From: a virus
DNA length: 20,723 nt
IMG/VR virus record: IMGVR_UViG_3300003322_000964
Span: 1 to 20,723 of that record
Reading direction: 5' to 3' (one strand)
Below are positions 12,754 through 20,038 of the stretch, in pieces. The notes under the pieces were generated by a model that searched no databases, was not told the origin of the DNA, and saw only the letters and a list, made by a program, of their open reading frames with translations. Both the position numbers and the translations under genes were made by a program. Numbering within the stretch: the stretch's first letter is position 1; each line of letters opens with the position of its first letter.

Positions 12754-12914
12754 TGCGCGCTGAATCGATCAGGGATTATCGCGGCACGGCGGTAGGGTGT
12801 AACGCTGAGAGCCAGTATTCATGCGGGTTCTACAGGGTTAACAGGGTTTACATGGTCGCGCGGGCGTGCGTGCGCGTGTACGGGTTGTGCCGGGATGTTG
12901 ATGTGGGCTTTTAG
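12753..12914 (+). CDS. Possible 53-aa protein coupled to the primase
   Basis: The ATG overlaps the primase stop (TGATG), a coupling arrangement, and the first 20 residues (MRAESIRDYRGTAVGCNAES) look plausible. The rest is translated from the tandem GGGTTAACA repeats and has no recognisable fold. It may be a genuine small protein or only a chance frame through the repeat region. Confidence 0.3.
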   Translation: MRAESIRDYRGTAVGCNAESQYSCGFYRVNRVYMVARACVRVYGLCRDVDVGF

Positions 12915-12990
12915 TGAATTTCTCATGCGCGTAATAACTACTGTGATAACCCTGTTAACCCTGTTAAAGGTCAGTATCCATGCGGGTTTC
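12813..12990. other. Candidate replication origin with iteron-like repeats
   Basis: The stretch between the primase and the Q-like gene (12754-13096) has a layered repeat structure. ACAGGGTTAACAGGGTT (12832-12848) is matched by its perfect reverse complement at 12948-12964, each arm holding two tandem AACAGGGTT-like units. Outside them CAGTATTCATGCGGGTT (12813-12829) recurs in direct orientation at 12972-12988 with one mismatch. The central 100 bases are GT-rich. Iteron-like repeats next to a phage primase-helicase are the usual setting of an origin; function is inferred. Bases 12991-13096 show nothing else that I can support. Confidence 0.5.
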
Positions 12991-13096
12991 GGCGTATCAG
13001 GGGTGAGGTTCGGGATAGTTAAGCCGTGTAAGTCGGGTGTGTTCAATCAGAAGGATGGGCGCCGTAGAGCGCTGGGATAAGCGAAAGGGCCGAGAA

Positions 13097-14068
13097 ATGG
13101 ATGTAGGACAGAAAATGGAAACAATCTTCGCCAGCACGAGCCAAGCCGTGCATGTGGCGTTCAAGGTGATGAGCCAGCCGGCCATACAGGGCGCGCCGTT
13201 CCGCAAGGCGCTGATCCGGGCGATGGAATCGATCAACCTGGAAGGCCAGCAGCGCGAATGGCTCGACCAGCTGCGCGGCTCGCCGTCGGAGACGGTGAAC
13301 TTCGGGGGCCTGACGGGCGACGAGGTGCGGGCGCAGTGCGTCATGCTGCTCCAGGCCGTGAACCACTTGCCGCCGGCCGAACGGTGGACCCTGCAGGCGA
13401 AGTATGGCTACGTCGAGTTCGAGGACGCGACCGGCGACGATGTGATGCGCAACCAGCTGCTGAACGCCCTGGAGCGTGCGCGTGCCGAGGTCGTGGCAGC
13501 GACCGAGAGGATGCGCCTGGCGCGCGTGGCACTGGAAGCGGCGCGCGAGCAATACTTAGCATGCGAGGGCCGCATCGCACCGGCGCTGACGGAGGTGTCG
13601 GTGAAGGAGCTGTACCATGCCGCCCGCGACGACGTGCGCGACTGCGGCGCCGTGCTGGCACACGCGGAATCGACTGCACGCCAGCTCCAGATCGCCGTCG
13701 ACCGCGCGAACGGCCAGAGCGCGGTCGATGGCAGCGGGCCGGCAGTCGGGATGGGCGGCCGTCGCTTCGCGTTCTCGCAAGAGCGCATCGACGGTATCAA
13801 GGGCCTCTCCGCTTGGTTCCAGCCGATGTTTCCGCGCATCAAGCTGTTCGCGATTGACTGCATGCTCGGCCGCTTGTTTGCGAAGCACAAGGAGATCGGG
13901 ATCTCGTTCCGTGACCTGGCCCAGTCTTTCGGCGATAACGCCATGACGTACCAGCGTGCCTCGTACAAGATGCGGAACCACCTCCGTAAGCTGGAAGAGC
14001 GGGCATTGCAGCGCCTGGAAGAGCGCCTCGTGAAGGACGGTGTTGCCCTCCCGACAGAAAGTGATTGA
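13097..14068 (+). CDS. Putative Q-like late-gene regulator (antiterminator)
   Basis: The 323-aa protein has a conserved-looking core VRAQCVMLLQAVNHLPPAERWTLQAKYG-type segment (77-104), a long helical insertion rich in Ala, Arg and Glu (about 117-205, likely coiled coil), and a C-terminal helix-turn-helix (about 268-300, ISFRDLAQSFGDNAMTYQRA, then a basic LRKLEERALQRLEE helix). This pattern resembles late transcription regulators of Betaproteobacterial prophages. The position is telling: it is the last early gene and sits directly before a strong promoter with stacked terminators, as lambda Q does. ATG at 13097 follows AAGGG at a suitable distance. The function is inferred mostly from context. 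Confidence 0.6.
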   Translation: MDVGQKMETIFASTSQAVHVAFKVMSQPAIQGAPFRKALIRAMESINLEGQQREWLDQLRGSPSETVNFGGLTGDEVRAQCVMLLQAVNHLPPAERWTLQAKYGYVEFEDATGDDVMRNQLLNALERARAEVVAATERMRLARVALEAAREQYLACEGRIAPALTEVSVKELYHAARDDVRDCGAVLAHAESTARQLQIAVDRANGQSAVDGSGPAVGMGGRRFAFSQERIDGIKGLSAWFQPMFPRIKLFAIDCMLGRLFAKHKEIGISFRDLAQSFGDNAMTYQRASYKMRNHLRKLEERALQRLEERLVKDGVALPTESD

Positions 14069-14094
14069 CGGCCTTGTTACAGCTGGGCTATATT
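14065..14094 (+). promoter_or_regulatory. Strong candidate late promoter
   Basis: TTGACG (14065-14070) and TATATT (14089-14094) each match five of six sigma70 consensus bases, with an 18-base spacer. It overlaps the stop codon of the Q-like gene and points to the structural operon. Three terminators follow before the first late gene. An RNA hairpin with arms CGTCCTG/CAGGACG (14117-14123 and 14140-14146) lies early in the leader. Confidence 0.65.
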
Positions 14095-14162
14095 TTCGCC
14101 ATCATCGAAGTAGTTGCGTCCTGATGGAATAGATAGTCCCAGGACGTGCCAAGAAGTTCCAG

Positions 14163-14198
14163 AAAGCCCTGTCCGGCCCGTGCCCGACAGGGCTTTTT
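14163..14198 (+). terminator. Intrinsic terminator 1 of the late leader
   Basis: AAAGCCCTGTC (14163-14173) pairs perfectly with GACAGGGCTTT (14186-14196), an 11-bp stem with a 12-base loop, followed by further T residues. It should stop transcription from the late promoter unless polymerase is modified. The A-rich 5' flank makes it possibly bidirectional. Confidence 0.85.
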
Positions 14199-14239
14199 GC
14201 TTTCCCGATGTCTCCACGGTGCGCTCCGCTCGCGCCTTT

Positions 14240-14263
14240 GCCGGCCACGTGCCGGCGTTTTTT
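14240..14263 (+). terminator. Intrinsic terminator 2 of the late leader
   Basis: GCCGGC-CACGT-GCCGGC (14240-14256) forms a GC-rich 6-bp stem followed by G and six T residues. It is the second of three stacked terminators. Confidence 0.8.
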
Positions 14264-14335
14264 ATTCTCAACGACGAAAGGTGGTGATCCGTCTCGATCC
14301 GCTGCAAAAGCGGGGGATACAAGCATCGTTCGTTT

Positions 14336-14357
14336 GCCCGGTCCGCCGGGCTTTTTT
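14336..14357 (+). terminator. Intrinsic terminator 3, just before the first late gene
   Basis: GCCCGG-TCCG-CCGGGC (14336-14351) is a 6-bp GC stem with a 4-base loop followed by six T residues. It ends 16 bases before the tail protein Z start codon, so it directly guards the structural operon. Confidence 0.85.
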
Positions 14358-14373
14358 CTTCCGGAGGCGTGGC

Positions 14374-14973
14374 ATGGCAATTGCCGTCAACGTGCGGGGC
14401 AGCATGGACAAGATCATCGCTGACCTCGGCGTCAAGAAACGAGACGTGCCGGCCAAAGCCGTGCCGCGCGCCCTCAACCGTGTAGGTGCCATGGCCATCA
14501 CCCAGGCCGCCCGCGAGTTGCGCGATGAGGGCTACAACTTCAAAGTGTCCGAGATCAAGGACGCCATGTCCCAGCGTATGGCGTCGTCGTCCAACCTGGT
14601 CACGACGATCAAAGTCCGGCGCAAGACGAAAAGCCTCATGGAATTCAACCCGCGCGAGTCCAGGGCTGGCGTGACGGTGCGAGTCCACGGCCAGGCCAAG
14701 CTGATCAAGGGCGCTTTCATCGCTCAACGCCTCAATGGGACGAGCGGCGTGTTCATCGAAGACAAGACCGCCGGCAAGATCGTCTTGCGGCGGCAGAAGC
14801 AATACAAGCGCGGCAGCCGCGGCGGCTGGCACAGCTTCCCGGCCCGCAAGCTGTACGGCCCCAGCGTTGGCGGCGCGTACGCCAACGAGAAGGTGCAGCA
14901 GGTGATGCGGCGCTTCATCACCGAGAAGTTCGCCGCGCGCCTGGCGCACGAGATCAAAAACCTTGCGCGCTGA
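14374..14973 (+). CDS. Prophage minor tail protein Z-like
   Basis: The 199-aa basic protein resembles the minor tail protein Z family (lambda gpZ), which acts at the tail end that joins the head. Visible features are an N-terminal helix region with PAKAVPRALNRVGAMAITQAARELRDE (27-53), then a mixed domain including VRRKTKSLMEFNPRESRAGVTV and a KRGSRGGWHSFPARKLYGPSVGGAYANEKV segment (149-178) typical of tail-completion proteins. The ATG at 14374 follows GGAGG with a seven-base gap. In lambda the Z gene lies after the head genes; here it comes first, ahead of terminase. Confidence 0.75.
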   Translation: MAIAVNVRGSMDKIIADLGVKKRDVPAKAVPRALNRVGAMAITQAARELRDEGYNFKVSEIKDAMSQRMASSSNLVTTIKVRRKTKSLMEFNPRESRAGVTVRVHGQAKLIKGAFIAQRLNGTSGVFIEDKTAGKIVLRRQKQYKRGSRGGWHSFPARKLYGPSVGGAYANEKVQQVMRRFITEKFAARLAHEIKNLAR

Positions 14974-15076: not shown

Positions 15077-15268
15077 ATGAGTTCGTTCATTTCTGCTGCT
15101 TTAGCATCCCAGCTTCGTTCTCTGGCCAGCTCTGGTGAGGTCACCATATCGACGACCGTGCAAACCAATCGCGATTGGACCAAGGACGAGCTCAAACAGC
15201 TTGAGGCGCTGGTTCGGAAGAACCTTGTTGATAGGCTCGCGCGAGAGGAAATGTTGTCATGCCGTTGA
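15077..15268 (+). CDS. Hypothetical 63-aa protein
   Basis: Not recognised. The sequence has a Ser/Thr-rich first half and a charged helical second half (DWTKDELKQLEALVRKNLVDRLAREE). It has an excellent ribosome site (AAGGAG, six bases before the ATG) and its stop overlaps the next gene by ten bases, so it is translated with the small terminase. It may be a small packaging accessory protein; that is only a guess from position. Confidence 0.65.
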   Translation: MSSFISAALASQLRSLASSGEVTISTTVQTNRDWTKDELKQLEALVRKNLVDRLAREEMLSCR

Positions 15269-19994: not shown

Positions 19995-20025
19995 AAGCCC
20001 ACCGGCACGCCGCGTGGGCTTTTTT
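19995..20025 (+). terminator. Intrinsic terminator between portal and prohead protease
   Basis: AAGCCCAC (19995-20002) pairs with GTGGGCTT (20014-20021), an 8-bp stem with an 11-base loop, followed by more T residues. A terminator inside the structural operon only makes sense if late transcription is at least partly terminator-resistant. Confidence 0.75.
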
Positions 20026-20038
20026 ATTTGGAGAGGGA

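Follow-up and report, generated by a model that had tools for sequence, protein, structure and literature searches.

AlpA of Pseudomonas aeruginosa, which controls a cell-death operon and is described at the alpB and PA0807 promoters (PDB 7xya, 7xyb), is a proven Q-type antiterminator; the papers that describe it report no sequence similarity to known Q proteins (PMC7969949, PMC9371919). Control by AlpA depends on bases −25 to −22 (PMC7969949) and on a stretch resembling a −10 hexamer, with A+1 and T+5, that spans −1 to +5 (PMC9371919). For Q or AlpA to load, such a stretch is required along with a motif in the spacer between −35 and −10 (PMC9371919). GafZ, the antiterminator of the Caulobacter gene transfer agent, is reported to have no sequence or structure similarity to either AlpA or Q (PMC11150451).

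Here we analysed a 20,723-nucleotide stretch of a partial IMG/VR virus record (the window), in which the gene at 13097–14068, the promoter and leader parts, the first structural gene and a terminator within the structural operon lie on the plus strand; related loci carry L numbers. The window very probably encodes a Q-type switch for late genes, worked by an AlpA-type factor, in a temperate phage related to Oxalobacteraceae prophages. The support is computed and comes from homology, a predicted fold, conservation of the promoter architecture, the terminators and covariation in the first of them; where transcription starts, that the protein binds, that polymerase pauses and that it then reads through the terminators we infer from homology and conservation. 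The layout is like that of lambda Q/pR′/tR′ in that the site follows the early genes, the promoter contains a predicted Q site and a predicted sigma pause, its leader transcript should be short and terminated, and a structural operon lies downstream. Unlike in lambda, the protein matches no Pfam Q family, the first downstream genes are head rather than lysis genes, and the leader has extra RNA units (T2, and an element followed by T3). GafZ is alike as an antiterminator that has its element in the −35/−10 spacer and drives head genes past terminators (PMC11150451).

The gene at 13097–14068 encodes a protein of 323 residues that matches phrog_17923, a family annotated as of unknown function. 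It had originally been called Q-like, and its kinship to an antiterminator is upheld by both profile and predicted fold, but it is of the AlpA type and not of the Pfam Q families: the Pfam profiles of lambda Q, 21Q and 82Q were matched neither by the window protein nor by 29 homologues up to an E value of 1, and searches of Pfam and NCBIfam gave no match for the window protein. A profile built from 14 homologues had AlpA as its top PDB match (E 0.007). With 29 homologues the match to AlpA (PDB 7xya) reached E 3.9e-5, the next match being at 0.033, and a second, weak, co-linear match to AlpA appeared in the N-terminal part. For L041, one of the short homologues, the AlphaFold model (pLDDT 80) matched AlpA with a Foldseek E of 2e-4 and with Z 14.5 over 150 of 158 residues, the next unrelated structure scoring 4.9, while its comparison with 21Q (6p1b) gave Z 4.8 over 110 residues, level with unrelated structures. 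By its match to AlpA, the modelled L041 protein would have the AlpA/21Q-type fold, with an N-terminal ring part and a C-terminal helix-turn-helix. The fold match was obtained with L041, which agrees with the window protein at 59% of aligned positions; the model of the window protein itself is of low confidence (pLDDT 55), probably due to a helical insert. The insert comprises about 90 residues (114–205), is coiled-coil-like, is missing from the short homologues (alignment A4 and modelled helices) and sets the window protein apart from AlpA. The residues that align with the DNA contacts of AlpA differ as well, which would fit another binding site but does not prove one. Relatives of the protein occur in viral contigs and in genomes of Massilia, Duganella, Janthinobacterium and Cupriavidus, and the family was found in 2 of 399 genomes in a search of the Burkholderiales.

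Between the primase gene and this gene (12820–13000) we observed the repeats ACAGGGTTAACAGGGTTTAC and AACCCTGTTAACCCTGTTAAAG with CATGCGGGTT. L060 and L087 have a comparable arrangement, which hints at an origin of replication or some other kind of control site.

A promoter matching five of six bases in each hexamer had been predicted over the end of the Q-like gene, and the sequence bears this out: TTGACG (14065–14070) and TATATT (14089–14094), separated by 18 bp, form the sole 10/12 site and the best of the five sigma-70-like sites found in the stretch scanned, and the −35 hexamer overlaps the TGA at 14066–14068. Shuffled sequences are expected to hold 3.8 such sites, and therefore the promoter match alone proves nothing. 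What lifts it above chance is conservation, since a promoter (and, as described below, a terminator) is present at this place in all 46 loci with a Q-like gene, the promoter always at −4 to +21 from the stop codon. The search pattern was loose, with an estimated chance match in about 2% of such stretches, and the 46 loci, whose Q homologues reach as low as 42% identity in L043 and 32% in a Burkholderia phage, share ancestry, so that 46 of 46 does not amount to 46 independent tests. Base conservation was counted in 27 non-redundant promoters with 18-bp spacers, where TTGAC and TA.ATT are invariant. The spacer holds TGTTACA (14075–14081, −26 to −20; consensus TGTnnCA), a putative Q-binding element identified by its conservation and its position relative to the AlpA element (PMC7969949), with G−25 and A−20 kept in 27/27, T−26 in 26/27, C−21 in 25/27 and T−24 in 24/27. 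Spacing places the start at the A at 14101, as we infer, and around it lies CATCAT (14100–14105, −1 to +5), a candidate −10-like sigma-pause element in which A+1 and T+5 are invariant and C−1 is kept in 25 of the 27; it occupies the position known from AlpA (PMC9371919). It is followed by a conserved initially transcribed stretch, GAAGTAGTTGCG (14107–14118, +7 to +18), a probable pause site (G+7, A+9 and G+10 in 27/27, T+15 in 26/27, G+16 in 25/27). The AlpA system and the window both carry a motif in the −35/−10 spacer and a stretch resembling a −10 hexamer that spans −1 to +5 (PMC7969949, PMC9371919), though the motif itself is GGGACG for AlpA and, putatively, TGTnnCA here. The coincidence of TGTnnCA, A+1 and T+5 with the AlpA element positions is the strongest single argument for the proposed mechanism.

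A hairpin-plus-T-run scan called three terminators between the promoter and the structural genes. T1, which is tR′-like, spans 14166–14198 (stem 14166–14193 and T run, −20.2 kcal/mol); another terminator scan missed it because its loop is long. T2 forms the 3′ end of a unit at 14210–14263, its hairpin (14240–14256) having −10.9 kcal/mol, and T3 lies at 14336–14357 (stem 14336–14351, −11.2 kcal/mol) with compensatory stem variants in aligned relatives. In 300 dinucleotide shuffles of 14101–14374 the mean was 0.33 terminators, and three were found in one shuffle. In the T1 stem both sides have changed in 4 of 10 pairs, and 96% of cells are paired, compared to 37–55% when the partners are slid. 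The original prediction of three stacked terminators holds for the three hairpins with T runs, and no conserved gene was seen in 14101–14373, but they differ in origin and do not form a single stack: T1 is part of the Q module, T2 is the end of a double-hairpin RNA unit and T3 goes with a separate conserved leader element. Structural genes do follow directly, starting with a neck/GpZ-like gene at 14374–14973 (phrog_27, PF06763) and continuing with the small terminase subunit (start at 15259), GpA large terminase (15674), portal (18329) and head/protease (20039) genes. The fourth terminator that had been placed inside the structural operon is likewise found, in the gap between the portal and head genes (T4, 19997–20026; stem 19997–20019, −15.0 kcal/mol). 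Among the 46 loci at least one terminator is present in 46 and at least two in 40, the first stem lying at +23 to +151 and mostly at +23 to +70. At alpB a terminator lies at +54 and at PA0807 at +26 and +247; in the window they lie at +66, +140 and +236.

A rival reading would make the Q-like protein an ordinary activator or repressor acting on the late promoter, with the terminators serving just to insulate the head operon from upstream transcription. A helix-turn-helix protein bound between −35 and −10 could indeed influence initiation, and terminators between modules are common. However, the homology to AlpA and the conservation of a candidate pause element at −1 to +5 speak against this explanation, and an activator poorly explains why a terminator lies behind the promoter in all relatives and another inside the operon; we consider it very improbable. 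An antitermination factor acting at the late promoter, as originally proposed, stays the best explanation, given the match to AlpA in profile and predicted fold, the conserved cis elements and the universal promoter-proximal terminators.

Under antitermination, sigma-70 RNA polymerase would start at A14101 and pause just after the start because sigma region 2 contacts the −10-like CATCAT at −1 to +5. When the 13097–14068 protein is missing, polymerase would halt at T1, or at T2 or T3; the RNA from +1 to the end of T1 is predicted to be about 98 nt, in line with the leader RNA of about 100 bases foreseen for this state. When present, the Q-like protein would bind at TGTTACA and be loaded into the polymerase exit channel, where it would prevent hairpins from forming, and because hairpin formation is blocked T1, T2, T3 and T4 would be passed and the head genes turned on.

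The T2 unit consists of GTCTCC, hairpin I (14218–14236), the terminator hairpin and a T run, and two hairpins are predicted at this place in nearly all relatives. The GUCUCC 5′ end, hairpin I and following terminator hairpin are like those of RF02278, a family of betaproteobacterial double-hairpin sRNAs (bdhR, ‘toxic sRNA’). The window copy scores 19.5 bits (E 7) against this family, and a double-hairpin unit in another phage late leader (L007, 6293–6361) scores 42.2 bits (E 4.3e-5). Unlike members of RF02278, T2 units lie in a late leader, a promoter of their own is only hypothetical, and no copy in the window or its relatives reaches the gathering score of 50 bits. RF02837 (anti-hemB) was also considered and set aside, giving weak scores only (E 0.2–5).

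Between T2 and T3 lies a nearly invariant leader element of about 57 bp, TCTCAACGACGAAAGGTGGTGATCC...GGATACAA (14266–14322; alignment A3, model R1), and in aligned relatives T3 is always just 3′ of it. Among 392 genomes drawn from the family to which Massilia polaris belongs, the sequence-only model R1 detects it in 12. The Burkholderiales search met it in 2 of 399 genomes, one of these being a weak match amid host-like genes. BLAST of the leader against GenBank phages returned nothing related, and an isolated phage record carrying the element was not found. In L060, L063 and L064 the element is present and a Q-like gene is absent nearby, and in some of these a promoter-like site and hairpins lie further upstream. 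As a separate observation, these three loci, in phages without an AlpA-type Q, have genes 5′ of the element (L060, 10432–10908; L063, 5833–6327; L064, 5533–6090) that are candidates for another late-regulator family; a search for their identity yielded no name. We rejected a coding function or leader peptide for the element: the frame running through it varies among relatives, and its Shine-Dalgarno-like stretch has no start codon behind it. The window and L003 show paired −1/+1 indels within the element. The Rfam family CC2171 was rejected as well, since its 23.4 bits (E 0.75, in L092) come from the Shine-Dalgarno-like 5′ part.

Other conserved sequences occur in the leaders of relatives. The palindrome GTGCAGACGTCTGCAC, or a close variant, precedes the first head or HNH gene in L018, L021, L022, L029, L041, L060, L064 and L070, and is absent from the window leader. 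A second conserved motif, approximately GGCGGCGTTGGGCGATAACG(N)TAAGCGC, lies shortly 5′ of the element in L039, L062, L063, L083, L085, L086, L088, L090 and L092. A conserved stretch ending approximately in AAGTTGTGG lies 3′ of T3 in L009–L017, L083, L085, L086 and L088, and is possibly another RNA structure.

One reading of the element is that it is a cos packaging site, with T2 and T3 as mere flanks. It borders the head genes on their left side, mostly 1.4–2.2 kb ahead of the large terminase gene, is conserved at the DNA level without covariation, and occurs in phages both with and without the AlpA-type Q gene, all of which would suit a cos site. Against this, the element is not tied to one type of terminase: it precedes GpA enzymes that are 27–95% identical to that of the window, some of them only 27–30% identical, as well as HK97-type enzymes of another family that adjoin HNH genes, and it is absent from a GpA phage (L004) and two HK97-type phages (L069, L070). 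Moreover, T3 stands behind it everywhere. Its position and a loose likeness to the lambda cos region made a cos site a serious candidate, but comparison with lambda and with KT1 and PS3, the pair of phages whose GpA terminases come closest, gave only short chance matches. On this and on the mixed terminase types we rejected the cos candidate and regard packaging as an unlikely function.

Since the same element is found with or without the Q gene and before different terminases, a host partner is likely. The element may act in cis as a leader RNA with the help of a host factor, for example by binding the 30S subunit through the 16S tail or RNA polymerase in the manner of put RNA, and so tune T3 or how the head operon is translated; we put this forward tentatively, our confidence in any single function being low. 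Its hairpin loop varies in length and sequence while CCGC/GCGG is nearly always kept, T3 always comes next, and positions 14276–14290 are complementary to the 3′ tail of 16S rRNA (−27.6 kcal/mol, equalled in 0 of 300 shuffles), the strongest pairing among the positions scanned along either strand of the window. For the tail we used what we take to be the betaproteobacterial sequence. On the other side, compensatory changes are absent from the element, no pair having a two-sided change, on which ground an RNA structure of the element was set aside, and the CCGC stem is broken in L066; the anti-Shine-Dalgarno centre of the pairing is always mismatched or bulged, with no start codon behind it. 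Furthermore, homology reduces the complementarity to a single event, and in L041 the element ranks only tenth among scanned positions on its strand. A wider proposal, that this is a new phage leader RNA which recruits a host component, most likely 30S via the 16S rRNA 3′ tail, and controls the structural operon or host translation whichever late regulator is present, strikes us as improbable.

The late switch is known in principle, and the assignment of the protein family to the AlpA type is new; the retention of the leader element while the Q gene and the terminase are swapped points to a host partner. With the AlpA-type assignment phrog_17923, so far labelled as of unknown function, would gain a role, and AlpA, a bacterial cell-death regulator, would be tied to antiterminators of phage late genes by detectable sequence homology and a predicted fold shared over 150 residues, the one serving a cell-death operon and the other phage late genes. 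The 46 natural promoters would show which bases are important for loading and could be used directly to test the sigma-pause model.
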